Shown here: in pieces, positions 11,776 through 27,056 of the stretch
How positions within the stretch are numbered: the stretch's first letter is position 1
How the letters are laid out: each line of letters starts with the position of its first letter
From: Komagataeibacter medellinensis NBRC 3288
GTDB lineage: Bacteria; Pseudomonadota; Alphaproteobacteria; Acetobacterales; Acetobacteraceae
DNA: 64,000 nt
Direction: 5' to 3'
NCBI RefSeq assembly: GCF_000182745.2
Contig: NC_016037.1
Coordinates: forward strand, 186,001 to 250,000
Program-made: the position numbers and the translations under genes
The notes under the pieces: model-generated
The model's database searches: none
What the model was told of the DNA's origin: nothing
Seen by the model: the letters and a program-made list of their open reading frames with translations, nothing else

Positions 11776-12849
11776 TCAGCGAGCAAGTGGATAATCGGTA
11801 TAGCCTTCTGCACCCTGCGAGTACCAGGTGCGGATATCGTCCTTGTTCAGGGGCAGATTGTCTTCCAGACGACGCACGAGGTCCGGATTGGCGATGAATG
11901 GGCGACCGAATGAAATGGCATCTGCAACACCGGTTGCGACTGTTTCGATCGCTTCATCGCGTGTGTAGTCCTGATTCAGAACCAGCGGCTTCTTAAACAC
12001 TTCGCGGATCGGGCCATGCAGCTTGGGCTGATCGGTCTTGCCGAACGTGCCATTCGGTCCGGGTTCGCGCAGTTCAAGAAAAGCGATGTCGAGGTCGTTC
12101 AACAGCTTTGCCGCCGGCACAAAAACCTGCTCGGGATGGCTGTCGATGCAGCCCTGCGTATCGCCATTGGGGGACAGCCGTACTGACGTTTTGTCCGCGC
12201 CAATCGTTGCGATTACGCGTTCCGTGACTTCACGCAGGAAGCGGATGCGGTTTTCCGGCGAACCGCCATACTCGTCGGAACGATGGTTGGTGCCGTCCCG
12301 CAGAAATTCGTCGATCAGGTAACCGTTGGCGGCATGAATCTGCACACCGTCAAAGCCTGCCTGAAGAGCATTGCGAGCGGCGTTTTCATAATCGTCCAGG
12401 ATGCGGGCAATGTCCTCCCTGGTAAGAGGACGGGCAATTTCGGGAGCCTGTTTGCCGTCATAAGTATGGAGCGCTTCAGGTGCTTTTGTCGCCGAGCAGG
12501 ACACAGGCTGCTGACCCGTCACGCTGGAATGCACCATGCGGCCCATGTGCCAGATCTGGGCCACGATCTTTCCGCCCTTTGTATGGACTGCAGCGGTGAT
12601 AGGCTTCCAGGCTTCTACCTGTTCCTGCGACCACAGACCCGGCGCATACGGCCAGCCAAGACCTTCGCGGCTGATACCAGTCGCTTCCGAGATAATCAGA
12701 CCGGCCCCAGCGCGTTGCGCGTAATATTCGGCCATGATGGGAGTGGGTACATGCTCGCGGGTGCCCCGGCCACGTGTCAGCGGCGCCATGAGAATTCTGT
12801 TTTTTGCGTAAATGCTTCCCAGTTCAATCGGCTCAAACAGGCTGGGCAT
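11776..12849 (-). CDS. nemA: Old yellow enzyme: NADH:flavin oxidoreductase, N-ethylmaleimide reductase type
   Basis: A 357-aa FMN-dependent TIM-barrel ene-reductase. Seen in order: LFEPIELGSIYAKNRILMAPLTR at the N-terminus, IVAQIWHMGR in strand 3, VQIHAANGYLIDEFL, NHRSDEYGG and NRIRFLREV in the FMN/substrate region, and FGRPFIANPDLVRRL near the C-terminus. Enzymes of this group reduce activated C=C bonds, N-ethylmaleimide and nitro compounds with NAD(P)H. It has its own terminator. No adjacent regulator (such as NemR) is visible; the gene is isolated between relics. Confidence 0.92.
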   Translation of the reverse strand: MPSLFEPIELGSIYAKNRILMAPLTRGRGTREHVPTPIMAEYYAQRAGAGLIISEATGISREGLGWPYAPGLWSQEQVEAWKPITAAVHTKGGKIVAQIWHMGRMVHSSVTGQQPVSCSATKAPEALHTYDGKQAPEIARPLTREDIARILDDYENAARNALQAGFDGVQIHAANGYLIDEFLRDGTNHRSDEYGGSPENRIRFLREVTERVIATIGADKTSVRLSPNGDTQGCIDSHPEQVFVPAAKLLNDLDIAFLELREPGPNGTFGKTDQPKLHGPIREVFKKPLVLNQDYTRDEAIETVATGVADAISFGRPFIANPDLVRRLEDNLPLNKDDIRTWYSQGAEGYTDYPLAR

Positions 12850-12895: not shown

Positions 12896-13060
12896 TCATG
12901 TGGAATACAACAGGAGGCCTACCACCTCGTCTGACTTGAGGTAGAACGCGTAGGCTGAGCATCTGAACTGGTTGCCCTGGACCTTGCCGATCTGAGCAGT
13001 GTCCGCGCATGCACCGATCAGTTGAATGAACGAACCCGCTGCGCGGGATTGGTGTGACAT
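12896..13060 (-). CDS. Possible small protein, 54 aa, unknown
   Basis: A 54-codon reverse frame from ATG 13060 to a stop at 12896. It has a Cys-containing middle (IGACADTAQIGKVQGNQFRC) and a plausible hydrophobic end (VVGLLLYST). No strong ribosome binding site precedes it and I recognise no family. It lies upstream of nemA among recombinase debris, so it may itself be the tail of a lost gene. Confidence 0.25.
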   Translation of the reverse strand: MSHQSRAAGSFIQLIGACADTAQIGKVQGNQFRCSAYAFYLKSDEVVGLLLYST

Positions 13061-13155
13061 GGAAGTCTGTCACCACGGCGTGAGAGATCTATTTTATTTG
13101 TAACTGTCCTGATCGGGCCAAGCACTCTGGCTTTTTCCCACCAAAAGGAGCCCGG

Positions 13156-13317
13156 ATGATAACGGAGTCCCTGTGCATTGCTGCAATCAGTCACCTTCGC
13201 CAGCGCCTGCTTGATGACATGGCGGTGCGGCGGTTCTCCCAGGGAACGCAACGCAATTACCTTCGCGATGTCGGCCGTTTCGCTATGTTTCTGGGCCGCT
13301 TAGGCGTCACGAATTGA
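13156..13317 (+). pseudogene. Tyrosine recombinase, N-terminal fragment
   Basis: A 53-aa frame with a good ribosome binding site (AAAAGGAG) encodes the start of an integrase core-binding domain: ISHLRQRLLDDMAVRRFS, QRNYLRDVGRFAMFLGRLGV. It resembles the N-terminus of the IS91/ISCR-associated XerD-like recombinases. A stop follows where the rest should continue and the sequence becomes a ribB relic. Confidence 0.7.
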
Positions 13318-13451
13318 GCCGCCATGACCACGTCGCCTTCGTTCTACTTGCTGTCATCGTCCACCATGATGACCAGTCGTCCTGCACGCATGGCCTGGCT
13401 CGCGTGAGCTATCCGCTTCCACTGACTGTCGCTCAGACCATACCGTCGCAT
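13310..13451 (-). pseudogene. ribB: ribB relic (3,4-dihydroxy-2-butanone-4-phosphate synthase N-terminus)
   Basis: On the reverse strand, from an ATG at 13451, the translation reads MRRYGLSDSQWKRIAHASQ then AMRAGRLVIMVDDDSK, a stop (TAG), and NEGDVVMAAQFVT. This is the RibB N-terminus (GRxVIxVDDExRENEGDLxMAA), with the stop in place of the Glu before NEGD. The gene is cut after AAQFVTP at the junction with the recombinase fragment. Only about 45 of some 200 codons remain. Confidence 0.7.
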
Positions 13452-13708
13452 TCACACTCTTCCCGTCCCATCAACAGGAAGAAAACATCACAGATCAAAC
13501 GGGAGTACAAGCGGCATAATCCTCCCGCTTAACTGACGAAACGCCCTAGTTCAATGCGGATCATGGCAACAGCATGGGACGGCGGCCCGTTGCTCTGTGA
13601 GATACCGATTTATTTCCGGCGACCCGAAATCAGGCAAAAGATCGCCGCTAAACGGCTCAATAAGATCGTGGGAAGAATTTAACTGGGTATAATCAATGTT
13701 AAAAAATG

Positions 13709-13738
13709 AATCTGTGGTTGTCGGAACAACCACAGATT
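13709..13738 (-). terminator. Terminator downstream of the cio operon
   Basis: Perfect 13-bp stem, AATCTGTGGTTGT (13709-13721) with ACAACCACAGATT (13726-13738), loop of four. It lies four bases after the stop of the small cio subunit and in that direction continues into ATTTTTTAAC, a T-rich tail. Confidence 0.8.
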
Positions 13739-13741
13739 TAG

Positions 13742-13891
13742 TCATTTTGGTACGATCATGTGAACGAGTAGTGCGCTTGCGAATAACGCTGCTGTGCTAA
13801 GCGTCCATATGCCGATGAACCAACCTATACGCTGGCTAAGGCGCCGGGGCGCGTTGTCCCCATTGCCCTGTACAATCTCAATGATAGCCAT
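13742..13891 (-). CDS. CydX-like small bd-oxidase subunit (DUF2474-like)
   Basis: A 49-aa protein starting at ATG 13891, overlapping the 3' end of cioB by 14 bp. It has one predicted membrane helix (about residues 22-46: IGWFIGIWTLSTAALFASAL) after a short basic, cytoplasmic-looking N-terminus. Size, position directly after subunit II and the RxGWF start of the helix fit the DUF2474/CydX-type accessory peptides that stabilise the haem site of bd oxidases. Too short for usual gene calling. It is followed at once by the operon terminator. Confidence 0.75.
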   Translation of the reverse strand: MAIIEIVQGNGDNAPRRLSQRIGWFIGIWTLSTAALFASALLVHMIVPK

Positions 13892-14897
13892 CTGCTTCCG
13901 TTACCTTTCCCCGGAACACACGATAGGAGTAGACTGTGTAGGTCAGGATGATCGGCAGCAAGATGACGGTGCCGACCAGTTGAAAAAATTGACTGGATGG
14001 GGGGGATGATACATCCCACAGCGTCAACCCGGGCGGAACAGCATACGGCCATACCGTAATCCCGAGTCCGGACAGGCAGAGAAAGAACCAACCGAGAGCA
14101 CACAGGAAGGGTCCTTTGGAATGCCCACGACGCAGACCGATGGTCAGTAGAAAACCTAGTGCGATTACCAGAAGGGGAACGGGTGCGACAAATACGATAT
14201 TGGGCCACTCGGTCCAGCGTCGCAGGTAGGGTGCGTGCAACATAGGCGTCCACAGGCTGACAGCGACGATGCATACAAACAACCCGATTGCCAGCAGCTT
14301 CGCCCATTTGCGGCAGGAAGCTTCTAGCACGTCGGTTGTGCGCCAGATCAACCAAGTTGCCCCGAGCAGGGCATAACCGCACATGACGGCCAGTCCGCAC
14401 AGCACGCTGAATGGGGTCAGCCAGTCCATTGAACTGCCAACAAAAGCTCCATCCACGACCTTGATTCCCTGAACAACTCCGCCGAGGATTGCGCCCTGGC
14501 AGAAAGCAGCGATTCCCGATCCAATCATGAAGCCACCGTCCCACAGTTTTTCGCGTCCAGTCCCGCGTGTCATGATACGAAATTCGAAGGCTACACCCCG
14601 GAAGATCAGGGCAACCAGCATGAGCACGATCGGCAGGTAAAACGCGGGAAGCAGGGTTGAATAGGCCCCAGGAAAGACCCCGTAAAGCGTAGCGCCACCA
14701 AGGACCATCCACGTTTCGTTTCCGTCCCATACAGGGGCAATGGTGTTGACCATCACATCCCTGCGGCCGTCATGCCGTTCCACGGCGAACAGCATTCCGA
14801 TGCCAAGGTCAAACCCATCAAGGACGACATAGATGGTGATCGCAGCGACCAGAATAACGGCCCATATGATCGGAAGCCAGTATGCGACGTCCATCAT
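13878..14897 (-). CDS. cioB: Cytochrome bd-type quinol oxidase subunit II (cyanide-insensitive type)
   Basis: A 339-aa membrane protein with about eight to nine helices and the subunit II signature VVLDGFDLGIGMLF (residues 24-37), followed by APVWDGNETWMVLGG and LIFRGVAFEFR. Subunit II pairs with CioA in the inner membrane and lines the oxygen or quinol side of the enzyme. The start is two bases after the cioA stop, so translation is coupled. The length and loops match the CioB/CydB group found in acetic acid bacteria and pseudomonads. Confidence 0.95.
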   Translation of the reverse strand: MMDVAYWLPIIWAVILVAAITIYVVLDGFDLGIGMLFAVERHDGRRDVMVNTIAPVWDGNETWMVLGGATLYGVFPGAYSTLLPAFYLPIVLMLVALIFRGVAFEFRIMTRGTGREKLWDGGFMIGSGIAAFCQGAILGGVVQGIKVVDGAFVGSSMDWLTPFSVLCGLAVMCGYALLGATWLIWRTTDVLEASCRKWAKLLAIGLFVCIVAVSLWTPMLHAPYLRRWTEWPNIVFVAPVPLLVIALGFLLTIGLRRGHSKGPFLCALGWFFLCLSGLGITVWPYAVPPGLTLWDVSSPPSSQFFQLVGTVILLPIILTYTVYSYRVFRGKVTEADGYH

Positions 14898-14899
14898 GT

Positions 14900-16333
14900 T
14901 CAGGCTCCTTCGCCAGAAGAGGGATTGATGACTTTGGGATGAGTGCTTGTGGCTAGAATATCCGGGGCATGAGAGGGGCTGGTCTCATGCTCTCCTTCCT
15001 GTGGTGCCCCTGCTAGCAGGCGGCCCAGAATGCCGATGCCTGATCCAAATACGATTACGTAGACCACAACAAAGACGGTCATCGTCAGCGCCATATTGGA
15101 CAGAGCAATCGGGGAAACACTATCGGATGTCCTGAGCAAACCATAAACGGTCCATGGTTGACGCCCAACCTCGGTCGTCACCCAACCGCACAGCAATGCG
15201 ATGAAACCGGCCGGTGCCATGCATACGGCGACCCGATGAAATCCCGGACTGCTAAACAGAGTTCCTCTGTGCCTCAGCCAGAGTGACCAGAACCCGACAA
15301 TGACCATAAGCATCGCCAGCGCAATCATGATGCGGAAGGAAAAGAAGATCACGGGAGAAGGCGGACGCTGGTCACGCGGGAAATCCTTCATGCCCGGTAC
15401 CTTGCCATTCAGGCTGTGTGTCAGGATGAGCGACCCGGCCAGCGGCAGCCTGATGGCATAATCCGTATGTTCGGTTTTCATGTTGGGAATACCGAACAGT
15501 AGTTCAGGGGCACGTGCTTCTGACTCCCAGTCCCCTTCCATCGCAGCAATTTTAACCGGCTGGTATTTGAGCGTGTTCAACCCGTGGGCGTCACCGGCGA
15601 GGACCTGCAGAGGGGCAACGAAGGCTGCCATCCACATCGCCATGGAAAACATCAGGCGCACTGGTTCGCTTGCCTGGGTGCCCGCACGGCGTGCCTTGAG
15701 CAGATGCCACGCCCCTGTCGCCCCTACTATAAAGGCAACCGAAAGAAAGGCCGCCAGACCCATATGCACAAGCCGGAAAGGGAAAGAGGGATTGAAAATG
15801 ATGGCAAGCCAGTCCGCAGGTATGAAGCGACCGGTAGCAGCATCAATCGTGTATCCCTGCGGCGTCTGCATCCATGAGTTTGATGCCAGGATCCATGTCA
15901 TCGAGATGAGTGTGCCGACCGAGACACAACATGTTGCTGCATAATGCAGGCCGCGTCCCACCTTGTTCATGCCAAAGAGCATGACCCCTAGGAAGCCCGC
16001 CTCGAGAAAGAAGGCTGTCATGACTTCATACGATAGGAGGACACCTGTAATAGGCCCGGCTTTCCGCGAGAAAACTGACCAGTTCGTGCCGAATTCATAC
16101 GACATGACCAGTCCGGAGACGACGCCCATCCCAAAGACGATCGAGAATATCTTGATCCAGTATCGGTAGAGATCAAGATAGGCCGCACGGCCGGTTTTAA
16201 GCCATAATCCTTCCAGTACGGCCAGATAGGCTGCCAAGCCGATTGAAAAGGCAGGAAAAACAATATGGACGCCTACGGTAAAGGCGAACTGGAAGCGTGC
16301 AAGAAGCAGCGCGATATCGTGAGATGGTTGCAT
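14900..16333 (-). CDS. cioA: Cytochrome bd-type quinol oxidase subunit I (cyanide-insensitive type)
   Basis: A 477-aa membrane protein carrying the haem ligands: His23 in FTVGVHIVFPAF, and a second His in FRLVHMGLAAFL. It also has the conserved GRQPWTVYG motif. The periplasmic quinol loop is short, as in the CIO subfamily (P. aeruginosa CioA) rather than E. coli CydA. CIO enzymes oxidise ubiquinol and reduce oxygen while resisting cyanide. It is the first gene of a three-gene operon (cioA, cioB, small subunit). The neighbouring upstream operon is of the Nit1C nitrilase type. Confidence 0.93.
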   Translation of the reverse strand: MQPSHDIALLLARFQFAFTVGVHIVFPAFSIGLAAYLAVLEGLWLKTGRAAYLDLYRYWIKIFSIVFGMGVVSGLVMSYEFGTNWSVFSRKAGPITGVLLSYEVMTAFFLEAGFLGVMLFGMNKVGRGLHYAATCCVSVGTLISMTWILASNSWMQTPQGYTIDAATGRFIPADWLAIIFNPSFPFRLVHMGLAAFLSVAFIVGATGAWHLLKARRAGTQASEPVRLMFSMAMWMAAFVAPLQVLAGDAHGLNTLKYQPVKIAAMEGDWESEARAPELLFGIPNMKTEHTDYAIRLPLAGSLILTHSLNGKVPGMKDFPRDQRPPSPVIFFSFRIMIALAMLMVIVGFWSLWLRHRGTLFSSPGFHRVAVCMAPAGFIALLCGWVTTEVGRQPWTVYGLLRTSDSVSPIALSNMALTMTVFVVVYVIVFGSGIGILGRLLAGAPQEGEHETSPSHAPDILATSTHPKVINPSSGEGA

Positions 16334-16611
16334 GGGTAATTCCCCAAATCCTGATTCAGTCGCAGTTATAAGAAATATAAAATTTCAATAAATGCAGACT
16401 TCTAGACGGTTTTGTTGTTGGAATATTCGCACTGTCTGATAGATGCAGGCATCTGTTATTTTTTTGATTTTTGAAGACGCCTTCAGTTACCATTCTGTCG
16501 TCTTTCTAATAATCCTTTAACCATGACATATTGATAAGTGCAGAGTCTCCGGACTGTCTGTTTGAGCTCACCATTTTTCCGTAAGAATGATCTGGTACGA
16601 GCCTGATAACG
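16334..16611. other. Promoter region of cioA
   Basis: 278 bp between the last Nit1C-type gene and cioA, AT-rich and without a coding frame. AGATGC-AG-GCATCT followed by a T run (16441-16462) forms a small hairpin on the plus strand. I see no convincing FNR/ANR box. The cio operon therefore probably has its own promoter here, although readthrough from the upstream operon is possible. Confidence 0.45.
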
Positions 16612-18384
16612 TTAAGATACCAACAGGCGTTTCCGCGTGATCTTTCCTGAAACCGTTGTCGGCAGATGTTTGACGAAGCGGACTTCCTTAAGACCAATCC
16701 AGCGACCGAGTGCGTGATTGACCCGTCCGATTATCTCCTCGGAAGAAGGTCTGCCTTCTACGCCGGAGTTAGGTACTACATAGGCGACAGGTCGCTGGCC
16801 TCTCAGTTCATCAGGGGTGGCCACTACGGCACAGGCATGAACTTCTGGATGGGCGGCGATGATCTTTTCGATCTGTACGCCCGAAATTCGCCGGCCCGCG
16901 ACCTTTATGACATCATCGGAACGCCCGAGCATATGCACGGCGCGGCTGGCCTCGATCATACCTTCGTCAAAGGTACGATAATACTGGCCGGTCTCGTCTA
17001 GGTAAGCTGTAGGAACATGGATCGCTCCATCCTTCCATACGCCAGCCAGGCAGCCGGGTGGCAGCGGCAGGGAGAGGACAATTTCGCCGCACTGTTCACC
17101 GGGTATGGACAGCATGATTTCCGGACGGAATCCCGGTGCAGGCCGCCCGATGTCGTTCATGAGCGCAACCGGCTCACGCTCGGGCAGGCCAAAGAAATGC
17201 GCGGTGATGCTCCATCCGGTTTCGGTCTGCCACCAATGATTGACCACGGGTTTGCAAAAATAGGATCGTGCCCACTCCAGCAATGTCGGGTCCGCATATT
17301 CCCCGGCCACGAAAATGCGGGCCAGTGCAGGCAGGATGGCCCCTGACAGGTTGCGGCTTTCCTGCCGCATGAGGCGCATCTGGGTGGGTGTGGCGAACAG
17401 GCATTTCACCTCGTGCTCATGGCAAAGCGCGCGGATGGCGGAAGCCGATGCGCCGCCTTCCACGATCACGCTGGTGCAGCCGCTGAGCAGCGGTGCATAG
17501 ACCCCGTAGGAATGGCCTACCACCCAGCCCAGATCCGATGTCGTGAAGAACGTATCGCCGGGTTCGCAGCCATAGATCAGCTCCATGGACAGGGCGAGGG
17601 CCACGGCATGCCCGCCATTGTCGCGCACGATGCCCTTCGCATGACCTGTCGTGCCGGATGTATGAAGAATATACAGTGGATCTTCAGATCTCAGCATGAC
17701 CGGCTCTGCCGGCGCGGACTGTTCCAGCGTATGGAAATCGTGATCCCGTTCCGGCAGAAGCTGAGCCGGGCAGGTCGCTCGCTGCACGATCACGCAGGCC
17801 TGGGGTTTATGCTCGGCTTCGGCTAGCGCCTCATTCAGGGCGAGTTGGGATGGTATGGTGGTTTGCCCCTGAAAGCTGCAACTGGCGATGATGATGACTT
17901 TCGGCGCCACGCTATCAATCCGCCGAGCCAGCTCAGGTCCGGCGTAACCGGCAAAAACCACCACATGCACCGCCCCGATCCGCGCACAGGCCAGCATGGC
18001 GATGGCGGTTTCGATCATGGTGGGCATGGCGATCAGGACGCGGTCGCCTTTCTCCACCCCCAGCGCGCGCAGGCCGCCGGCAAACCCGGCCACCCTGCCC
18101 TGGAGTTCCCGGTAGGTTACCACCTGCCGTTCCTTCGTGGCGCAGGAATGCCAGATCAGCGCCGCCTGCCCGCCGCGTCCGTCCGCTACATGCCGGTCCA
18201 CGGCGTTATGGCAGGTGTTGAGCGTGGCGTCGGGGAACCAGTCATGCCAGCCATCCGCCCGTGTCCTGCATGCGCTCACAGGTGCCTGCTTCCATGTGAT
18301 GCGTTGCGCCGCCTCCAGCCAGAATTGTTCTGGCTGGCTTGTGGCCGCGTCATACATCGCCTCATATGTTGTCCATGGAAGCAT
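16612..18384 (-). CDS. Acyl-CoA synthetase, acetyl/propionyl-CoA synthetase type
   Basis: A 590-aa adenylate-forming enzyme. Motifs in order: ACS N-terminal domain, ATP loop YILHTSGTTGHAKGIV (about residue 235), TSDLGWVVGHSYGVY as in PrpE, NHWWQTETGW (A5), and the C-terminal TVSGKITRKRLL with the lysine needed for adenylation. It joins a short carboxylic acid to CoA via an acyl-AMP. It follows the flavoprotein gene by 15 bp and ends the operon. Its place in this operon suggests activation of a cluster-specific acid, or simple acetate/propionate activation. Confidence 0.88.
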   Translation of the reverse strand: MLPWTTYEAMYDAATSQPEQFWLEAAQRITWKQAPVSACRTRADGWHDWFPDATLNTCHNAVDRHVADGRGGQAALIWHSCATKERQVVTYRELQGRVAGFAGGLRALGVEKGDRVLIAMPTMIETAIAMLACARIGAVHVVVFAGYAGPELARRIDSVAPKVIIIASCSFQGQTTIPSQLALNEALAEAEHKPQACVIVQRATCPAQLLPERDHDFHTLEQSAPAEPVMLRSEDPLYILHTSGTTGHAKGIVRDNGGHAVALALSMELIYGCEPGDTFFTTSDLGWVVGHSYGVYAPLLSGCTSVIVEGGASASAIRALCHEHEVKCLFATPTQMRLMRQESRNLSGAILPALARIFVAGEYADPTLLEWARSYFCKPVVNHWWQTETGWSITAHFFGLPEREPVALMNDIGRPAPGFRPEIMLSIPGEQCGEIVLSLPLPPGCLAGVWKDGAIHVPTAYLDETGQYYRTFDEGMIEASRAVHMLGRSDDVIKVAGRRISGVQIEKIIAAHPEVHACAVVATPDELRGQRPVAYVVPNSGVEGRPSSEEIIGRVNHALGRWIGLKEVRFVKHLPTTVSGKITRKRLLVS

Positions 18385-18399
18385 GGCGCTTTACTCCGT

Positions 18400-19647
18400 T
18401 CAGGCTACAGGCACGTCTTTGCCGGTGATCTGGCTGGCCAGCCACGCGGCATCACGCGAAACACCGGAGAACCGTCCCGATCCCCAGGTGTGCAGCCATG
18501 GCAGGCCGAGGAAGTAGAAGCCCGGCGCATCGGTCACGCCGCGATGCCAGACCGGCTTGTTGGCCCCGTTGAAGACCGGCACGTCGATCCAGCGATAGTT
18601 CGGGCGGAAGCCGATGCACCAGAGGATCGAAGTGATTCCGGCAGCCTTCAGGTCGAGCGGGGTGTTACTGCCATCGGGCTCCCACACAGGCACATAAGGG
18701 GCTTCGGTCGGAGCCGTGATCCCTTCACGGGCGATGTAGGCGTCAATGGATTTCTTGATGTCGGCATTGGTCTTGTCCGCATCATCAAGGTTTTCCTTCA
18801 GATCCGGCGCGAAGTGCGCCACTTCATCGCGGATTGTCTCCAGTGTGCCATGCAGGCCAACGCCCTCCTTGGCAAAGAGGCGCAGATCAAGATCATGGCC
18901 TCCATTTCGACCGGTGACATAATGATTGGTCTTGTCGCGTGCACCGTCACGCAGAGGGTGATTATCCACCGTAAGGTCGTAGAAGTGCATGTCCGCAAGC
19001 CAGTCCACAACGTCGCGGCCACGGTAGAAGCGCGACACGCGCGGGGCGGAACCGACACAGAGATGGACCTTGCGTTTTTCAAGGAACAGGTCCTCGACAA
19101 TCTGCGCGCCGGACTGGCCGCTGCCCACGACCAGCACAGCCCCTGCCGGCAACTGGGCCGCGTTGCGGTAATCCTGCGAGTGAACCTGATGGATGGCGGG
19201 GTCGATCGCGCTGGCATAGCCGGGGATGACCGCGTCCTGATATGCGCCCGATGCGATGACCACATGCTTTGCGTGCCACGTCTCACCACCTGCCACCACG
19301 CGGTAGCCACCACCTTCATGGCGGGTGATGGAGGTAACGGCTGTGTGCTCGCGCAGGGGCGGATTGAAGGAGGCGACAAAGCCCTTCACGTAGTCAATAA
19401 TTTCCTGCTTCACCATGAAGCCGTGCGGGTCTTTTCCCTTGTAGGGATGACCGGGGAGTTCGCACTGCCAGTTCGGTGTGACCAGGCAGAAATTGTCCCA
19501 GCGTTCATCATCCCACGAATGGCAGGCGGTCTTTGCCTCAAAGACGATGTGCTCCACCTTCTCGCGGCAGAGATACCAGCTCATGGAGAGCCCGGCCTGT
19601 CCGCCGCCCACGATGATGACGGGGATGCTTTTTTCGTTCTGTGTCAT
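18400..19647 (-). CDS. nitH: Nit1C flavoprotein (MSMEG_0569-family FAD-dependent oxidoreductase)
   Basis: A 415-aa FAD/NAD(P)H-dependent monooxygenase-like protein. The FAD Rossmann motif VIIVGGGQAGLSMSWYL is at residues 9-25, the second dinucleotide motif VLVVGSGQSGAQI is near residue 165, and ATG-like motif ITSILWCIGFRPNY is near residue 345. The family is found almost only in Nit1C clusters (MSMEG_0569 in Mycobacterium smegmatis). The reaction is not established. Sits 16 bp after the small nitG-like gene, before the acyl-CoA synthetase. The nit letter follows the usual Pseudomonas order and is by homology. Confidence 0.87.
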   Translation of the reverse strand: MTQNEKSIPVIIVGGGQAGLSMSWYLCREKVEHIVFEAKTACHSWDDERWDNFCLVTPNWQCELPGHPYKGKDPHGFMVKQEIIDYVKGFVASFNPPLREHTAVTSITRHEGGGYRVVAGGETWHAKHVVIASGAYQDAVIPGYASAIDPAIHQVHSQDYRNAAQLPAGAVLVVGSGQSGAQIVEDLFLEKRKVHLCVGSAPRVSRFYRGRDVVDWLADMHFYDLTVDNHPLRDGARDKTNHYVTGRNGGHDLDLRLFAKEGVGLHGTLETIRDEVAHFAPDLKENLDDADKTNADIKKSIDAYIAREGITAPTEAPYVPVWEPDGSNTPLDLKAAGITSILWCIGFRPNYRWIDVPVFNGANKPVWHRGVTDAPGFYFLGLPWLHTWGSGRFSGVSRDAAWLASQITGKDVPVA

Positions 19648-19663
19648 GGTCGTTCTTTTCGTC

Positions 19664-19951
19664 TCAATAACTGAAAGACAGGACGCGCACCTGCGCGTCG
19701 GACTGGTTCAGAAAAGGCGCACTGGCCTGCCTTATGGCCTGAAGCTGGCCAAGGGCGCGGCTGCATGGGAAGCCGTAGCGGGCGCGAACCCGCTCGCTGG
19801 CGTCCGTCAGGGCGGTGTCCGCCTTTTCAAGAAACTCCCGGACCGGATAATCCTGACCGGGCGTGAAGTGGTCCCTTATGACCAGCGAGGGGGAGTAACA
19901 GTCAGTCTCCTTCCCATCGGGCCAGCGCACACGAAAGGTCATTTCGGGCAT
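19664..19951 (-). CDS. nitG: Nit1C small protein (MSMEG_0570 family)
   Basis: A 95-aa soluble protein, MPEMTFRVRWPDGKETDCYSP at the start, matching the MSMEG_0570 family of nitrogen-starvation-response-annotated proteins in Nit1C clusters. Features: a beta-rich start, PSLVIRDHFTPGQDYPV, and the tail ASAPFLNQSDAQVRVLSFSY. The ATG at 19951 overlaps the end of the glycosyltransferase gene by 13 bp; an upstream start at 20005 would overlap more with no gain. Function unknown. Confidence 0.82.
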   Translation of the reverse strand: MPEMTFRVRWPDGKETDCYSPSLVIRDHFTPGQDYPVREFLEKADTALTDASERVRARYGFPCSRALGQLQAIRQASAPFLNQSDAQVRVLSFSY

Positions 19952-21117
19952 GGTGAAAGAACTCCTGAAGCAAGGGCATCGGTGCGCGACCGCGCTGCCA
20001 GACACCGATATGCGGGGAGGTGCCGACTGGCGACGTGGCCCCAGTCGAAACGGCGGGCGGTTGCGGGGCCACTAGCCCGGAAGCGTTCGCGGTTTTGGGC
20101 GCCAAGGGCATCCCGCAAGGCCAGAAACAGGGTGTCGGGGCGCGCCAGGTCGCACCACAGCGCATCTGCCCGCGAAAGATGCTCGGTAAAGGGCGCGATT
20201 TCCGGCACAACGACTGGCGTGCCACAGGCGAGCGCCTCCAGCGGGCACAGGCCGAACCCTTCGGTTATGGACGGATAGGCCAGCATATCCGCCTGCCGGT
20301 AGAATGAAGGCATGTCTCCATCCGCAACCGGCCCGGTGATGGTGACATGATCGGCTGCACCGCTTTCGCGCAGACGCGCCATGAACCGGGTGCGGTAGGC
20401 AGAATGATCCAGCAGCGAAGCCCCGCCCGCCACGACCAGATGCACATCAGGCCGCTCGCGGCGAAGGGCCAGAAATGCGTCGAGCAATTGCAGCGTGTTC
20501 TTGCGCCGCTCGATCCCGCCCACGGACAGGATCAGGTGACGGTCGGCAGGCAGATGATACCGCGCCCGCAACGTGGCATCGTGCGCGGTTGGGACGTGCG
20601 AAAAGCGCACGGGATCAACCCCGTTGCCCACGACCGGGGCTTCGCGGCCATGGTCGTTGCGCAGGACATCTTCCCACATTGTGCTGACGGTAAACAGTTC
20701 GGCCGCCGCCCTGATCCCCCGTTCCTGCCGCGCGGCAAGGACCGGGTGTGTGAAATGGTCAAGATGGTGGACCGTGCGGGCAAAGCCCGGTATCCGCCCC
20801 TCTTCCACCAGTTCGGCCAGTGCATTGGCGCTGATCGGGTCCTGTGCGTGCAGCACGTCAAAAGGCTGCCCACGCAGGGCGTCCCTGATCTCGCCAATAC
20901 GGCGTTCCACCAGCGTTGGCAGGTCGCGCTCGGGCACAGCCGGGATGCAGTTTGTGGCGCAGCGGGGCCTGCGGAAGAAACCGACCCCGGTTACATCCGG
21001 CGCGATGAGCGTGGCGTCGTGGCCTGCGTCGCACAGGGCTTCGGCCAGCGCCATGCCATGCACCACGCCGCCACGCGGATTGGTGGAATGGGTCAGGATG
21101 CCGATGGAGAGGCTCAT
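19939..21117 (-). CDS. Glycosyltransferase, GT4-like (MSMEG_0565 family)
   Basis: A 392-aa GT-B-fold glycosyltransferase. N-terminal acceptor domain begins MSLSIGILTHSTNPRGGVVHG; the C-terminal donor domain has LSVGGIERRKN and the nucleotide-sugar motif SITEGFGLCPLEALACGTPVV (E-x7-E type). Start at 21117 overlaps the stop of the AIR-synthase-like gene in ATGA. MSMEG_0565-family enzymes occur inside some Nit1C clusters, including mycobacterial ones, but not in the core seven-gene Pseudomonas set. Sugar donor and acceptor unknown; it implies a glycosylated product. Confidence 0.87.
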   Translation of the reverse strand: MSLSIGILTHSTNPRGGVVHGMALAEALCDAGHDATLIAPDVTGVGFFRRPRCATNCIPAVPERDLPTLVERRIGEIRDALRGQPFDVLHAQDPISANALAELVEEGRIPGFARTVHHLDHFTHPVLAARQERGIRAAAELFTVSTMWEDVLRNDHGREAPVVGNGVDPVRFSHVPTAHDATLRARYHLPADRHLILSVGGIERRKNTLQLLDAFLALRRERPDVHLVVAGGASLLDHSAYRTRFMARLRESGAADHVTITGPVADGDMPSFYRQADMLAYPSITEGFGLCPLEALACGTPVVVPEIAPFTEHLSRADALWCDLARPDTLFLALRDALGAQNRERFRASGPATARRFDWGHVASRHLPAYRCLAARSRTDALASGVLSPCPK

Positions 21118-22088
21118 GGCGCACACCCCATGAGAGGCATCCGGGCGAGATCCCAGAAGGTTTCCTTCTCGTCCGCCCATGTGACATCCAGCCGCTGCGT
21201 GCTGTCACACTGACCGATGACAGAAGCCGCTATGCCCCGCCCATGAAAGCGGGCCATGACTGCCCCGGCCGCCTCGGGCCGGGCCGTCAGCAGATAGCCA
21301 TAGCTGGGGAATGCGGACAGCCAGCGTTCCATTGGTGCATCGTCGGGACGTGGAATGTCATCGAGCGTGATGGTCATGCCGATACCCGAACATTCTGCCA
21401 GCATGAGGGCGGTGCCCAGCAGTCCGGCCATGCTGATGTCCTTGGCGGCGCGGCTTAACCCGTCCTCGGCAATGCCGGGCAAGAGATCGAGATCACCCCG
21501 AAGGCGTGCCGCCCCCTCAGTATGACACAGTGCGGAACTCGCATCCCAGAACGGGTGCGGGTCGTGCCAGCGGCCGCGCAGGTCGATGGCGGCGATCAGG
21601 ACTTCGCCCGGTCGGGCATCGAAACTGGTCAGCAGATGACGGGCACGGCCAAGGATCGCCACCGACAGCGAATTATGGGTGCTGCGCATGTTGGTATGAC
21701 CGCCGACAACCGGCACGCCATAGGTGCGCGCACCTTCATGCAGACCGGTCAGAATGGACGCGGCCGCCTCGGATGTATCGCTCCACAACGCATCCACCAC
21801 AGCCACAGGGCGACCGCCCATGGCCGCGATGTCACTGATATTGACCATCACGCCGCAATAGCCGGCAAACCACGGCATGGCGCGCACGAAGCTGTCCTGA
21901 AACCCCTCGCTGGCCAGCAGGAGATAGCCATCGCCATCCGGTATGGCAGCACAGTCATCTCCTAGGCGGATACCATCGCTTGTATCCCGACCAAGAATTG
22001 CGACGGTTTCGGCAATATCCTGTTTGCCCGCAAGGGCCCGACCGTGTCGAAGCGTGCGCAGCAGTGTCGTCAGTTCGTGTGCCATCAT
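21114..22088 (-). CDS. nitF: Nit1C AIR-synthase-like protein (PurM/ThiL/SelD superfamily)
   Basis: A 324-aa PurM-like ATP-binding protein. Seen: GDDCAAIPDGDGYLLLASEG (residues 40-59, metal/ATP site), MVNISDIAAMGGRPVAVVDAL, VVGGHTNM and ISMAGLLGTALML. It matches the Sll0787-type family restricted to Nit1C clusters. Enzymes of this superfamily phosphorylate or form imidazole, thiamine or selenide intermediates. Its start overlaps the GNAT stop by four bases (ATGA). The actual substrate is not known. Confidence 0.88.
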   Translation of the reverse strand: MMAHELTTLLRTLRHGRALAGKQDIAETVAILGRDTSDGIRLGDDCAAIPDGDGYLLLASEGFQDSFVRAMPWFAGYCGVMVNISDIAAMGGRPVAVVDALWSDTSEAAASILTGLHEGARTYGVPVVGGHTNMRSTHNSLSVAILGRARHLLTSFDARPGEVLIAAIDLRGRWHDPHPFWDASSALCHTEGAARLRGDLDLLPGIAEDGLSRAAKDISMAGLLGTALMLAECSGIGMTITLDDIPRPDDAPMERWLSAFPSYGYLLTARPEAAGAVMARFHGRGIAASVIGQCDSTQRLDVTWADEKETFWDLARMPLMGCAP

Positions 22089-22648
22089 GCCACCTGCCGG
22101 TTACGAGGCTGCGGGCGCAGCAGCCAGGTCTGGTCCAGCCCATGCGCCGGATAGCGTGAGAGGTCGGCCTGCATGTCGTGATGTGGCAGCCCATGCAGGG
22201 TCATGGCCCCGAGGCTTTTCCAGTGCAGGCGACGGAAGAACAGCACGTTCTGTTCCTGCACCTGGGCCAGGAACCGCGTGGCCCCAAGCCCGTGCGCCGT
22301 GCTGACCGCCATGCGGATGAGTTCCGCGCCGATCCGTCCCAGCCTGCGATGGTCTTCATGGACGGCCAGACGGGAGCCGCGCCAGACGCCGGGTTCGGCT
22401 TCATGGATGCGCACGGCGCCCACCACCCGGTCCGGCATGCCCGCCATGCAGCACGCCGCGATGATGGGAATGGCAACCGCGTCGATTGCGTCCCGGTCAT
22501 CATCCGCAAAGACCTGCTGTTCGGTGCAGAACACGTCGCGGCGCAGCGCATGGTAGCCAGCCCGTTCCCACGGCGTGCGGACCAGCCGCACGACATATTC
22601 CGTAGGGATGAACGGGCGGTCGTCCACGCCTTCGAGGATCGCTGTCAT
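22085..22648 (-). CDS. nitE: Nit1C GNAT-type N-acetyltransferase (MSMEG_0567-like)
   Basis: A 187-aa GNAT-fold protein. The ATG at 22648 overlaps the radical-SAM stop as TAATG; longer frames upstream only shadow that gene. Motifs: FCTEQQVFADDDRD near the N-terminus, VVGAVRIHE, and the acyl-CoA pyrophosphate-binding region LAVHEDHRRLGRIGAELI (Q/RxxGxG/A-like). In Nit1C clusters this member and the AIR-synthase-like protein may be separate or fused. Substrate unknown. Confidence 0.85.
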   Translation of the reverse strand: MTAILEGVDDRPFIPTEYVVRLVRTPWERAGYHALRRDVFCTEQQVFADDDRDAIDAVAIPIIAACCMAGMPDRVVGAVRIHEAEPGVWRGSRLAVHEDHRRLGRIGAELIRMAVSTAHGLGATRFLAQVQEQNVLFFRRLHWKSLGAMTLHGLPHHDMQADLSRYPAHGLDQTWLLRPQPRNRQVA

Positions 22649-23754
22649 TATTCGTACGCCGAAAGGGAGGAACAGGCGCCACACCGGCCACACCCGGCGC
22701 GGATGTCGGTGGATTTCATGTTCGCCTCGCGCAGCATGCGCCCCAGTGGGGCCAGCACGGACTTCATGAAATCGGCCGAAGGCGGCGCGTGATTTTCCAG
22801 CGGTGTGCCGGAAATCGGCACGAACGGCACCACGAAGGGATAGACCCCGAGCGCAATCAGGCGTTCGGCCAGAGCCAGAATATCTGCGGCGCTGTCGCCA
22901 AGACCGGCCAGAATGTAGGTATTGACCTGCCCGCGCCCGAAGACCGGCACGGCGCTGGCGAAAGCGTCCATATAGCGATCCACGCTGACCGTGGCCTTGC
23001 CGGGCATGATCTTCTCGCGCACCGCCTGTGTTGCGGCTTCGAGATGCATACCCAGGCTGTCGGCCCCGGCGTCGCGCAGGCGCTGGAACCAGCCGTGATC
23101 GCGCGGCGGCTCGCACTGGACCTGAAGCGGCAGATCCACAGCCGCCCGAATGGCACGGGCTGATTCCGCCAGCACGGCAGCACCCCGATCAACCACATTG
23201 GGCGTGCCGGTGGTCAGCACCATGTCGCGCACGCCGTCCAGTTCCACGGCGGCCTTGGCGACCTCGGCAAGCTGCGCCGGTGTCTTGTAAGCGATCGTCC
23301 GATCGGCCTCCAGCGACTGGCCGATGGCGCAGAACTGACAGGAGGTGCGCCGGTCGGCATAGCGGATGCAGGTCTGGTGCACCGTGGTCGCCAGCGTGTC
23401 ACGGCCATGCAGCAGGGCGATCTTCCAGTAGGGAATGCCGTCCGCCGTGCTCAGTCCGTAAAAGCGCGGGGCGGCCGGAAAATGGATCGTGCCCAGTGTC
23501 TGCCCATCGCGTAGCAGCGTGCTGGCCCCGTGCTGGTCCGGCGGGCTGGCCTGGAATGGTGAATGCCGCGCGCCGGATGTATAGACCGGGACCATGACGG
23601 TCTGGCCTGCAATGGTAATCGTCTTGTGATCCGAAGGACCGGCGCCTCCCTTGCGGGCAATGCCGCCGGTCTGCTCACCGATCTGCAGCCCGAAGGATTG
23701 CAGGTCGGTAACGAGCTTGCGACCAGAAAGTGTACCGAGCGTCGGAATGGTCAT
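22648..23754 (-). CDS. nitD: Nit1C radical SAM protein (MSMEG_0568 family)
   Basis: A 368-aa radical S-adenosylmethionine enzyme. Cys129, Cys139 and Cys142 ([14 protein letters not shown]) give CX9CX2C, longer than the canonical CX3CX2C, as is usual in this family. Then MVLTTGTPN and SLGMHLEA follow the TIM-barrel order. A C-terminal [12 protein letters not shown] offers additional cysteines, possibly an auxiliary cluster. Start overlaps the nitrilase stop by four bases. The chemistry is unknown; a radical SAM beside a nitrilase argues that the cluster builds or modifies a molecule. Confidence 0.9.
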
Positions 23755-24725
23755 GACGCAGCCTCATCTGTAGATGTGGGAACCGGATTGGCTTCCCCAA
23801 CGTAATGAACGGTGCGGGCGGGCCGCCGGTCCTGAAGCAGGCTGAGCAGTTCGGGCCGTGCGTAATGCCCTACGGAATCCATCATCCGCTTGCGCTTGGT
23901 AATCAGGGCGAAGTCGAGATCGGCAATCACCATCCCCTCGCCTTCCGTCAGTGGTGTGCCGAGCAGCTTCCCTTCAGGCGAGACGATGGCCGTGAAGCAC
24001 CCACCCCGCAGCGGCCCTTCCAGCGCGGGATCGCGGGCTATTTCCTTGATCTGCTCTTCGGTGAGCCAACCCGTGGCGTTCACCACAAAGCAGCCGGATT
24101 CCAGCGCGTGATGCCGGATGGTGACTTCCATCTGGTCGGCAAAGATCTGCCCGACCAGCGAGCCCGGAAACTGGGCACAGTGGATTTCCTCGTGCTGGGT
24201 CATCAGCGCGTAGCGGGCGAGCGGGTTGTAATGCTCCCAGCAGGCCAGTGCGCCAATGCGACCGGCAGCGCTTTCCACCACTTTCAGCCCAGAACCATCG
24301 CCCTGCCCCCAGACCATGCGTTCATGGTAGGTGGGCGTGATCTTGCGGCGTTTGAGCAGGATTTCACCCGTGGCGTCGAAGATGATCTGGGTGTTGTAGA
24401 GCGTGCCGAAATCGCGCTCGTTCACGCCCAGCACCACGACCATGCCGGTCTGGCGCGCGGCCTCGGCCATCATGTCGGTGACCGGACCGGGAATGACGAC
24501 GGCGCGTTCGTAAAGCGCCAGATGCTCCCCACCGAAGCGGAAAGCCGGCTGGATGAACGAGAAATAGGGATAGTACGGCACAAAGGTTTCGGGAAAGACC
24601 GCCAGTTTCACGCCTTTTTCGGCGGCCTCGCGGATGGCCTGACAGACTTTCCGGGCAGTTCCCAGACCATCGTCACCAAGGACGGGGCTGATCTGGATGG
24701 CTGCGGCGCGAACGATACGGGACAT
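23751..24725 (-). CDS. nitC: Nitrilase of Nit1C type (cyanide/nitrile hydrolase)
   Basis: A 324-aa carbon-nitrogen hydrolase with the complete triad: Glu46 in [14 protein letters not shown], Lys128 in [18 protein letters not shown], and nucleophile Cys162 in [12 protein letters not shown]. The ribosome binding site AGGGAGG is 11 bp upstream. NitC of cyanotrophic pseudomonads converts cyanide to formate and ammonia, and is needed there for growth on cyanide. The same activity here is inferred from family and gene order. Part of the operon starting at 25232. Confidence 0.93.
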
Positions 24726-24749
24726 GGCTTGCGGTCCTCCCTTCGGCCT

Positions 24750-25232
24750 TCAGAGGGTCCAGGTATTGAGGATGAAGGCGTTGTCGCGCCGGGCCAGCAG
24801 GATGATGTCGAGCACGTCCTGCGGGTTGATCGGCGTGATGCCGGGGATCAGGTTCTGCTCGCCGTAGCCGTAGAGGGCCTGAAGCGCGAAGCGGCAGGCA
24901 TAGACCTTTCCGCCTTCCTCAAGGATTTTTGCGATCTGCTTGTTGCAGTTCATGTGCCCCGGAAAGGCTTCGTCGCCCAGACGGGGAAAGCCGCGCTGCA
25001 CACCAAGGGTGACACCCGGTCCATATAGCAGCACCGACGTCTCGAAGCCCTTGCGGATCAGGCGGGTGGCCTGCAGCAGGTTGACGAACCCGACCGAGCC
25101 TTCATTGGCGACGGTGTGGAAGGTGATGAGGGCTTTTTCGCCGGGCTGGGCTTTGACGTCCTCAAAAACCTTGTTTTCATAATTGACGAAGCAGTCGCCG
25201 TCTTTGTACGGAGCGTGTTCGACTTTCGGCAT
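24750..25232 (-). CDS. nitB: Nit1C first-gene protein (MSMEG_0572/Sll0783 family)
   Basis: A 160-aa soluble protein of the MSMEG_0572/Sll0783 family, annotated as nitrogen starvation response and with a DsrE-like alpha/beta appearance: [38 protein letters not shown] and [14 protein letters not shown] with a conserved Cys. First gene of the operon, with GGGAGA as ribosome binding site about seven bases upstream. Function unknown; the family is diagnostic for Nit1C. Confidence 0.88.
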
Positions 25233-25572
25233 GGTATCTCTCCCGTGTGCTGCGGTCTCCGGCAGGGAGCCGGGACTGACCGCGTTGCCGAGGCAAACGT
25301 GGCACGGGATGGCAGAGAGCCAAAATATTGTATGCCTTATGAAAAAGGTACAAACGGATCAAATCAGATTACATGCCGCCATCCTGCCACGACAGAGGCA
25401 TACAAGAAATATACGACAACCATACAATCGTAAGGTGTATCCATAAAGGTCTGTTTTAGCTTGATTTTATAGTCACGCAGTCGTGAATGAAGTGCCTTTT
25501 TGTTTTTCCGTGTGCCCGCATGGCGCGCCCCGGAATCAGATGGTCCCATCGATTCCAGACACTGCGCGCAGG
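25233..25572. other. Leader/promoter region of the nit operon
   Basis: 340 bp between the MocR gene and the first operon gene. It is markedly more AT-rich than its neighbours and contains the CATACAA repeats listed separately. No coding frame or clear terminator of the MocR gene is visible, so readthrough from MocR cannot be excluded. Confidence 0.6.
25398..25428. promoter_or_regulatory. CATACAA direct repeats upstream of the nit operon
   Basis: GCATACAAG (25398-25406) and CCATACAAT (25420-25428) are direct repeats 22 bp apart, two helical turns. A third copy lies in reverse at 25327-25335 (ATTGTATGC). CCATACAAT also occurs before the MocR gene (27023-27031). MocR regulators commonly bind spaced direct repeats, so this is a candidate operator. 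Confidence 0.5.
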
Positions 25573-26976
25573 TCACACAATATCGGCAAAGCCGGGTGAG
25601 CGTTTGTGTTGCAGGACCGACAGCACGCCATGCAGGGATTCCTCAAGGCTTGCAGCATCCGGTGCGCTGCCCAATGCAATCCGGGCCCGCTGCGGCGGCT
25701 CGCCACTGATGGTGAAAACGGTGCTGGGCACCAGCGCCAGTCCCCGCCTGCGGGCATAGGCCACAAAATCCGCACTGCCCCACCAGTCCGGCAGTTTCAG
25801 CCACACATGCGGCCCGTCGGGGTTCATGCAATGCCCCTCCCCCAGCACCCTGCGGGCAATGGACTGGCGCAGGCGCAGTTCTTTCTGGATGGCGTGCAGG
25901 ATCGTATGCGCCTGCCCTGTCTGCATCCACCGCGCCGTCAGCGCGCTGAGCAGACCGGCATTGGTGAGCGCAATGGCCCGGATGGCCGCCGCGACCCGTC
26001 GGGTCATGTCCGCATTGGGCAAGGCCACATAGGCGATGCGCAGGCCCGGACTGAGCGTCTTGGCAAGGGTAGCCACGTAGCTGACACGGCTATGGTCGAG
26101 TGCTGCCAGCGCCGGTAGCGGATTGTCCATCAGCAGGCTGTAGGGGTCATCCTCGGCAATATGCAGATGATGATGCTGGGCAACCTTCAGGATATCCTTG
26201 CGTCGTTGCAGGGACATCGTGGCCGTGGTGGGATTGTGGATGGTCGGAATGCAGTAGAGCATCCGGGGATGATGTTCGGCGCAGACGCGATCGAGCTGGT
26301 CCGGCATCATCCCGTCCATGTCGCTGTCCACGCCGACCAGAATAAGATCGAACTGCGCCGCGATGGTCCGGATGCCGGGATAGGCAATACGGTCGGTGAC
26401 AATCACATCGCCCGGCTGGGTATGGGTGCTGACAGTGGCCGCCAGAGCGCTCTGGGCACCAGGTGAGACAAGGATTTCATCCGTTCGCCGCTGACCGATG
26501 ACGGGCGCGATCCATTTCGCGCCAAGCTGGCGTTCTTCCTGTGTGCCACCCGTCACCCGGTAGGACATCAGGCTGTTCAGATCCTGCTGTTTCAGGATGG
26601 CTGCGATGTCGCTCTGGATGATCCGCTGAAGCGGTGGTTCCTGCGGGATCGGTGGCAGGTTCATGGTCAGATCCACCACAGCCGGTCCCGTATGGCGCCA
26701 GTGGCTTTCCCCCGCGCCGACACGGACAAAGGTTCCTCGGCCGACCGTTGCGTCAATCAGGCCGCGTCGGCGGGCCTCGGTAAAGGCCCGGGTCACGGTC
26801 GTCAGATTGGTGCCGAGATACTCCGCGATCGTGCGCTGTGGTGGCAACCTGTCGCCTTCCCTCAGGTCGCCCTTGCGGATGGAAAGCGCCAGGGCATCGG
26901 CCAGCGTCATGTAAATCGCGTTCGGACTCCGGCTGATCTCTTCTTTCCAGTGGGCGAGATAGGGGTATGCTGACAT
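25573..26976 (-). CDS. MocR-type GntR/aminotransferase regulator
   Basis: A 467-aa fusion of an N-terminal GntR winged helix (about residues 20-85: YMTLADALALSIRKGDLREG, DRLPPQRTIAEYLGTN, TTVTRAFTEARRRGLI) with a type I aminotransferase-like domain. The PLP lysine is in VATLAKTLSPGLRIAY. Such regulators sense PLP-linked metabolites such as GABA, ectoine precursors or PLP itself. Start taken at 26976 (MSAYPYLAHW); the longer open frame to 27135 comes from the adjacent IS copy A. Upstream of and co-directional with the nit operon, so a likely regulator of it. Confidence 0.87.
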   Translation of the reverse strand: MSAYPYLAHWKEEISRSPNAIYMTLADALALSIRKGDLREGDRLPPQRTIAEYLGTNLTTVTRAFTEARRRGLIDATVGRGTFVRVGAGESHWRHTGPAVVDLTMNLPPIPQEPPLQRIIQSDIAAILKQQDLNSLMSYRVTGGTQEERQLGAKWIAPVIGQRRTDEILVSPGAQSALAATVSTHTQPGDVIVTDRIAYPGIRTIAAQFDLILVGVDSDMDGMMPDQLDRVCAEHHPRMLYCIPTIHNPTTATMSLQRRKDILKVAQHHHLHIAEDDPYSLLMDNPLPALAALDHSRVSYVATLAKTLSPGLRIAYVALPNADMTRRVAAAIRAIALTNAGLLSALTARWMQTGQAHTILHAIQKELRLRQSIARRVLGEGHCMNPDGPHVWLKLPDWWGSADFVAYARRRGLALVPSTVFTISGEPPQRARIALGSAPDAASLEESLHGVLSVLQHKRSPGFADIV

Positions 26977-26989
26977 GGGATGGAATTTC

Positions 26990-27031: not shown

Positions 27032-27056
27032 CCGTGCAATAATGATCGATACAGAT

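Follow-up and report, generated by a model that had tools for sequence, protein, structure and literature searches.

A 2005 paper described Nit1C as seven genes conserved as a set across phyla and reported no conservation beyond Nit1C itself (PMC1199592). Cyanide assimilation in Pseudomonas pseudoalcaligenes (oleovorans) CECT5344 requires the nitC gene of this set (PMC11049912, PMC8567248). NitB, NitD and NitH are still described as proteins of unknown role (PMC6368324, PMC6989483). A mocR gene lies opposite the CECT5344 cluster for the cyanide-insensitive oxidase (CIO), and the mocR mutant expresses that cluster constitutively, the proteomics being cited as unpublished (PMC8567248). In Pseudomonas aeruginosa another MocR, MpaR, drives the oxidase subunit gene ccoN4 in response to cyanide; an adduct of pyridoxal 5′-phosphate (PLP) and cyanide has been proposed as its ligand, and its authors describe bacterial cyanide-sensing mechanisms as poorly understood (PMC10790758). 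Here we analyse a 64,000-nucleotide stretch of DNA (the window, in whose coordinates all positions are given) from Komagataeibacter medellinensis NBRC 3288. It carries a Nit1C cluster, an acyl-CoA ligase gene and the cioAB genes of a CIO in a single row headed by one MocR gene. The row is plasmid-borne, on a contig of 255,866 bases; a 3.14-Mb contig is taken as the chromosome.

The window shares with betaproteobacterial Nit1C the seven families, the order of ORF1 to ORF6 and a glycosyltransferase gene between ORF5 and ORF6 (PMC1199592). It differs in adding an AMP-binding ligase and cioAB-DUF2474, and in having a same-strand MocR of its own clade upstream. CECT5344 likewise has nit1C, cio and a MocR, and both of its modules are induced by a cyanide-containing residue (PMC6368324, PMC8567248); there, however, they lie apart (BN5_1630-1637 and BN5_1899-1913), with MocR adjoining cio and the regulator NitA belonging to nit1C, whereas in the window one MocR heads one row. 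With the MpaR/ccoN4 pair the window has in common a MocR-type regulator beside an oxidase gene, the cyanide response being MpaR's. The oxidase in that system is of the cbb3 type, the proposed site is ATCTGAT, and no Nit1C is described for it (PMC10790758). Both modules are known; the variant found here is the plasmid Nit1C-ligase-CIO row, and its regulator is the part worth following. We propose, with a probability a little under 60%, that this is one plasmid gene row under a cyanide-responsive MocR, joining nitrile-nitrogen scavenging to cyanide-resistant respiration. The features are as follows.

13709 to 13738, minus strand: terminator-like stem of 13 pairs with a T tail, directly past the DUF2474 gene (pattern scan)
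13742 to 13891, minus strand: DUF2474 small subunit of bd oxidase, 49 aa (Pfam PF10617, 35.4 bits; cut-off 26.6)
13878 to 14897, minus strand: cioB, bd oxidase subunit II (PF02322, 317 bits; TIGR00203, 173 bits)
14900 to 16333, minus strand: cioA, bd oxidase subunit I with short Q-loop (PF01654, 520 bits)
16334 to 16611, minus strand: gap of 278 bp between ligase and cioA, without TTGTATG; one terminator-like site, on the plus strand only
16612 to 18384, minus strand: AMP-binding acyl-CoA ligase, PrpE/Acs-like, 590 aa (under the NCBIfam cut-offs for PrpE and Acs; nearest solved chain 5gxd)
18400 to 19647, minus strand: Nit1C ORF7, MSMEG_0569 flavoprotein (TIGR04046, 665 bits; cut-off 498)
19664 to 19951, minus strand: Nit1C ORF6, MSMEG_0570 family (TIGR04042, 133 bits; cut-off 80)
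19939 to 21117, minus strand: MSMEG_0565 family glycosyltransferase (TIGR04047, 441 bits; cut-off 260)
21114 to 22088, minus strand: Nit1C ORF5, AIR-synthase-like (TIGR04049, 431 bits; cut-off 321)
22085 to 22648, minus strand: Nit1C ORF4, GNAT (TIGR04045, 236 bits; cut-off 68)
22648 to 23754, minus strand: Nit1C ORF3, radical SAM (TIGR04043, 590 bits; cut-off 304)
23751 to 24725, minus strand: Nit1C ORF2, Nit6803-family nitrilase with E46-K128-C162 (TIGR04048, 569 bits; cut-off 502.6)
24750 to 25232, minus strand: Nit1C ORF1, MSMEG_0572 family (TIGR04044, 270 bits; cut-off 110)
25233 to 25572, minus strand: promoter region with putative MocR operators, TTGTATG at 25328 (plus), 25399 (minus) and 25421 (minus)
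25573 to 26976, minus strand: MocR-type regulator, GntR DNA-binding domain and aminotransferase fold (PF00392 and PF00155, above cut-off)
26989 to 27030, minus strand: possible operator for autoregulation, ahead of the MocR gene start (on the plus strand, CCATACA at 26989 and CCATACAA at 27023)
27116 to 28213, plus strand: IS5-family transposase bordering the unit (PF05598, PF01609); an IS5 family element is also there on the near-identical plasmid

On the minus strand the row runs from the MocR gene through a 340-bp promoter region and the Nit1C genes to the ligase, the 278-bp gap, cioA, cioB, DUF2474 and the terminator-like stem. The starts of the GNAT (22648), glycosyltransferase (21117) and MocR genes were taken from the annotation of a near-identical plasmid; the longest MocR open reading frame (ORF) starts at 27135. 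A sequence-only reading of this DNA had set the unit at 13742 to 25232, with seven core Nit1C families on one strand at intervals of 1 to 16 bp and cioAB plus a small subunit 278 bp downstream. The joined row and all of these families are indeed present, each core family above its curated NCBIfam cut-off and on the minus strand, and the small subunit is the DUF2474 protein. That unit stopped short of MocR and the 340-bp TTGTATG-bearing intergenic region, and it omitted the MSMEG_0565 glycosyltransferase (between ORF5 and ORF6) and the AMP-binding ligase (between the flavoprotein and cioA). The row is tight as described, but the spacings from MSMEG_0572 to the ligase span −13 to +24 bp, the 24 bp lying between MSMEG_0572 and the nitrilase; the 278-bp gap separates ligase and cioA, so that cioA begins about 2.1 kb past the seventh core gene. 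A pattern scan gave 12 terminator-like sites against 10.0 expected in shuffles, the palindrome at 13709 to 13738 (found on both strands) having the longest stems, and listed none on the minus strand between ligase and cioA. A sigma-70 promoter scan was at chance level (5 found, 4.8 expected). The window contains no tRNA and no Rfam match at gathering score.

The nitrilase has the E46, K128 and C162 residues claimed for it and by model score belongs to the Nit6803 family of Nit1C, not outside it; among solved chains it scores 482 bits with 3wuy and 217 bits with the next. The same gene order recurs across dozens of loci and is not a product of chance. A single one of the enzymes suffices for simple nitrile hydrolysis. 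Nit1C might instead be a biosynthetic cluster (radical SAM, AIR-synthase-like protein, GNAT, glycosyltransferase and ligase) for the production or recycling of a metabolite with a nitrile group, the nitrilase being a tailoring or safety enzyme and the CIO a means of self-resistance. The unassigned Nit proteins (PMC6368324, PMC6989483) would fit such a role, as would the AIR-synthase-like protein, for which the models of SelD, ThiL and methanogenesis marker 2 also give scores, all under cut-off. The requirement for NitC in cyanide assimilation by CECT5344 (PMC8567248, PMC11049912) argues otherwise, and we consider a biosynthetic role quite improbable.

The regulator has the GntR winged helix and the aminotransferase fold with its PLP lysine that define a MocR; Lys359, Asp329 and Tyr332 (numbering of the long ORF) are kept in 90/90 aligned MocRs. 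Counting as neighbours those MocRs scoring above 150 bits within 1.5 kb of MSMEG_0572, the pairing is found in 55 of 57 Acetobacteraceae loci; the two misses are a Gluconacetobacter aggeris locus (L062; the MocR lies about 6 kb off, as seen in L095) and one at a contig end (L076). It is also found in 48/58 other named loci, nine more having the MocR at 1.8 to 8.2 kb (one of these weak, at 7.4 kb), and in 17/22 and 12/12 further loci from two order samples of 25 and 14 matches, 3 and 2 of which coincide with named loci and are included in that count. A quick-method tree separates a clade A (10 rows, seven linked to cyo genes for cytochrome bo3 and three others), a clade B (18 Acetobacteraceae rows, including the window) and a group C (56 rows: beta, gamma, some alpha, four distant Acetobacteraceae and three unlinked to Nit1C). 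It covers a subset of the MocRs, carries a long-branch warning, and its six remote “nit” rows are second MocR-type homologues of their loci. The helix consensus of the GntR domain is LTTVTRa in clades A and B and nyTTvARg in C.

Upstream of MSMEG_0572, TTGTATG is the best-scoring 7-mer by count times enrichment (16 of 20 Acetobacteraceae loci, hand-picked as diverse). Within 400 bp before this gene it occurs 120 times in 50 Acetobacteraceae loci, 56.7 times its density elsewhere; related loci are not independent. The words were chosen post hoc: TTGTATG first drew attention in the window, TTGATTGC in a handful of the loci sampled, and the counts came afterwards; the rankings of all 7-mers were made as a check. 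In 92 other loci the best-scoring word is TTGATTG (64/92). In the 250 bp upstream of clade-A mocR genes the commonest word is TGTATGG, with 21 sites in 9/9 loci and three elsewhere in those loci; by this ranking, which uses count alone, TTGTATG is fifth of 1623. The clade-A set comprises nine of the ten rows (the incomplete L223 was left out) and does not include an eighth cyo-linked MocR (G408). A shared word with a shared helix, and a shifted word with a changed helix, argue that these words are putative MocR sites. The K. medellinensis genome has two copies of the direct repeat TTGTATG-N4-34-TTGTATG, one at the Nit1C promoter and one inside a gene read as hemH from its translation, the latter taken as chance; the scan covered direct repeats, single or inverted sites not being searched genome-wide. 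Of six genomes scanned, three (G247, G277 and G337) have no such repeat. We note that in two Acetobacter-type loci (L046, and L098 of A. indonesiensis) MocR is divergent and ATTGTC-like words replace TTGTATG before MSMEG_0572, a possible operator shift inside clade B.

MocRs often regulate redox genes, cytochrome oxidases included, and part of the regulon proposed here may already be tabulated in the supplements of that study (PMC5320631). In 49 Nit1C-bearing genomes outside the Acetobacteraceae, eight MocR homologues of at least 98 (28 candidates were scored in each large genome) lie 1.1 to 1.3 kb from cyoB, against 0.26 expected from random placement; these genomes were chosen for Nit1C and represent 49 of the 58 named loci, nine being left out. 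Proximity to bd oxidase genes in the same genomes is found twice, against 0.35 expected. For one of the eight, in Cupriavidus pampae (L210), the order is cyoCBA-mocR-cioAB. MocR homologues adjoin cyo genes in seven Burkholderiales loci (L210-L213, L215, L216 and L220); these neighbourhoods come from a family search on the L210 proteins and two L220 proteins, one of which matched COX3, and otherwise from CyoB positions. In Gluconacetobacter (G. tumulisoli, G. azotocaptans, G. johannae and G. aggeris; L095, L105-L107) cioAB is divergent from the mocR heading Nit1C. There TTGTATG stands about 66 to 70 bp before cioA and again before MSMEG_0572, and the 21 kb of the G. aggeris locus contain no further copy. 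The Gluconacetobacter CioA is about 55% identical to that of the window and was therefore probably recruited separately.

The window oxidase had been claimed as the cyanide-insensitive type. Both subunits of a bd oxidase are matched, and in the alignment CioA has no counterpart of some 65 residues that follow residue ~320 in the C-terminal Q-loop of subunit 1 of E. coli bd-I and bd-II; by this Q-loop comparison it is of the CIO type, with no sign of the cyanide-sensitive CydAB type. A second cioAB is present on the chromosome of the same genome, so the plasmid copy is not the sole route to cyanide-resistant respiration; no TTGTATG precedes the chromosomal cioA. Two other acetic-acid-bacterial loci (L208 and L222) encode CioA proteins 86 to 87% identical to that of the window, L208 with a DUF2474 gene as well; neither has the operator word before cioA. 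Unlike that of the window, the L208 cioAB adjoins genes for a YdeP-type oxidoreductase and a nitrate-reductase-associated protein; this pair is also annotated beside cioAB in L167 (Acetobacter ascendens LMG 1591), and L222 has ORFs of similar size.

PrpE and Acs are the nearest NCBIfam models to the ligase. Its motif GWVVGHSY matches chain 5gxd, two acetyl-CoA synthetase chains having GWITGHSY and GWVTGHSY; AGE is shared with 5gxd and 2p2b, 7mmz having VGE; and the WWQTETG tryptophans are kept in the alignment with solved chains. We take the positions compared to be those that set a C2-C3 acyl pocket. The ligase gene directly follows the flavoprotein gene in 44/47 Acetobacteraceae loci outside clade C, in 0/5 clade-C Acetobacteraceae loci (four of the five are in the MocR tree) and in 1/86 other loci.

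These components suggest how the row might work. The PLP-type MocR would respond to cyanide, directly through a PLP-cyanide adduct or via a nitrile or amino derivative, and would control transcription from the TTGTATG-bearing promoter before MSMEG_0572. Transcripts would cross the ligase-cioA gap into cioAB-DUF2474 and end at the stem at 13709 to 13738, which would place the plasmid CIO, unlike the chromosomal one, under MocR. By analogy with Pseudomonas, cyanide would be substrate as well as signal in this organism: the nitrilase would hydrolyse a nitrile, probably the cyanohydrin that arises when cyanide reacts with a keto acid, in line with the proposal for Pseudomonas NitC. This would release ammonia together with a short carboxylate that may re-enter CoA metabolism through the PrpE-like ligase, and the CIO would sustain quinol oxidation while heme-copper oxidases are inhibited.

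The row has spread recently. Three named Komagataeibacter plasmids (159 to 309 kb) carry the 15.5 kb from 13000 to 28500 at 98.4 to 99.0% identity, with at least 99% of that stretch covered. Six records contain at least 80% of it, and 14.2 kb is present at 99.94% DNA identity in the genome of another genus. Compared with Acetobacter tropicalis LMG 19825 the cluster is 89.5% identical, cyoB 79.3%. The suggestion of a mobile island is borne out in part, by this plasmid location and by near-identical DNA across species and genera (up to 99.9%). One border is the IS5-family element; the tyrosine recombinase gene at 9003 to 10448 is not linked to an end. The remark that acetic acid bacteria are not usually linked to cyanotrophy does not hold at gene level, the Nit1C nitrilase being present in 17/19 Komagataeibacter species and, among the matches listed, on many Acetobacter and Komagataeibacter plasmids. 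Partial listings of the open-access literature gave no paper that we recognised as dealing with Nit1C or cyanide in these bacteria. A nitrilase above the TIGR04048 cut-off is encoded by 53/397 Acetobacteraceae genomes, 25/390 of the order of Marinobacterium lutimaris and 14/399 of that of Paraburkholderia fungorum. Two genomes (G391 and G837) have two copies, in G837 one on a 190-kb and one on a 3.5-Mb contig.

The nit-cio junction called for a survey in the Acetobacteraceae and recurs there as a minority variant: cioAB lies downstream of Nit1C in 7/51 testable loci (at least 8.8 kb of downstream DNA) and upstream in 3/44 (at least 4.9 kb of upstream DNA), with G. aggeris in addition at 8.4 kb. 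Frequent adjacency was rejected as an argument in its own right. Within at most ~10 kb on each side, less at contig ends, Marinobacterium lutimaris is the only case outside the family (1/58 named and 0/34 further loci). An intact, diverged junction (83% DNA identity; CioA protein 95% identical) is present on an Acetobacter oryzoeni plasmid typed as conjugative. The A. ascendens LMG 1591 plasmid retains the ligase and a truncated 5′ 1.2 kb of cioA (L167, 8001-9203) ending near an IS3 element, a different full cioAB being a few kb away. On two Acetobacter pasteurianus plasmids (L206 and L207) cioAB lies apart from Nit1C yet carries ~160 bp of the ligase gene end, which we read as a sign of a former nit-ligase-cio order. 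The junction therefore predates the recent spread, and it is at the same time falling apart in places.

Several observations weigh against a single MocR-controlled row. No TTGTATG precedes the window cioA, and direct comparison of the window's two intergenic regions gave no shared operator (longest common word 10 bases), so any co-regulation there would have to come from transcription running on through the 278 bp. The word is also absent from six distinct upstream regions of other CIO-type cioA genes (L001/L222 as one, L208, L209, L210, L230 and L236), as it is before the cioA-like genes of L233-L235, whose products are 27 to 34% identical to CioA and are not counted as CIO. Most of the ligase-cioA gap does not align with A. 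oryzoeni, the plasmids are rich in insertion sequences (IS) around cioAB, and MocR with Nit1C is far commoner without cioAB than with it. In Synechocystis the Nit1C genes respond to nitrogen starvation, under which sll0783 is upregulated (PMC3901256). All this, with the 7/51 count, would suit an ordinary Nit1C scavenging nitrogen from a non-cyanide nitrile, adjoined through plasmid rearrangement by cioAB as an independent, spare respiratory set. The diverged A. oryzoeni junction and the relics, which predate the recent spread, speak against such an accident, as do the independent cioAB-MocR-Nit1C order with operator words in Gluconacetobacter and the terminator-like stem after DUF2474, which has no counterpart on that strand in the ligase-cioA gap; we regard it as rather unlikely.

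Further points of this kind concern the regulator and its words. Among NCBIfam models, MocR comes closest to that of the ectoine regulator EhuR, with 365 bits against a cut-off of 480, and 5/22 Pseudomonadales loci have no MocR. Since bo3 oxidases are as a rule sensitive to cyanide, the signal read by a MocR next to cyo could be a different one. Most MocRs whose ligands are known sense PLP or amino compounds. The MocR of the window may thus sense an amino compound (an amino acid, an aminonitrile or an ectoine-like molecule) or respiratory state, the row then serving an amino-nitrile or nitrogen-starvation response. We consider this unlikely, as each of the two MocRs that have been studied next to oxidase genes has a link to cyanide (PMC10790758, PMC8567248). 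Those two were likened to the window MocR by published description, not sequence; MpaR activates and the CECT5344 MocR represses, and Nit1C of CECT5344 has its own sigma-54 regulator, NitA (PMC8567248). The published MpaR site ATCTGAT differs from TTGTATGG; it is outside the ten best-scoring words of any MSMEG_0572-upstream set and the twelve commonest clade-A words, no dedicated search for it having been made. Three clade-A loci (L211, L212 and L217) have TGTATGG without an exact TTGTATG. TTGTATG also has 13 sites within 400 bp ahead of MSMEG_0572 in the 98 loci of the non-clade-B set, 9.8 times its density elsewhere, so the words are not strictly exclusive. TTGATTG is best in 27 gamma loci alone, while in 65 non-gamma loci ATTGATC is best and TTGATTG fourth.

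The proposal of a cyanide-responsive MocR can be extended, tentatively and with more doubt than conviction, beyond this plasmid. The MocR clade may be a widespread cyanide-sensing switch that holds Nit1C, CIO and bo3 oxidase genes in one regulon family, with operators TTGTATG(G) in Acetobacteraceae and Burkholderiales and TTGATTG/ATTGATC in the clade serving Nit1C of other Proteobacteria. On this reading Nit1C would belong to a general response of bacteria to cyanide and not be a rare cyanotrophy trait, and the window row would be a fused, self-contained version. Nit1C would be tied to terminal oxidases by a common regulator whose operator word and DNA-reading helix vary together. Whether Nit1C is a cyanide response becomes testable with reporters in food-grade acetic acid bacteria, and vinegar and kombucha bacteria are a suggested place for cyanide-tolerant strains.

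Just past the IS5 element, genes for a TonB-like protein and a TonB-dependent receptor occupy 28729 to 32235. Downstream of the unit, the tyrosine recombinase gene is accompanied by one for an old-yellow-enzyme family reductase (11776 to 12849); like-named genes are at the same place on a Komagataeibacter europaeus plasmid.

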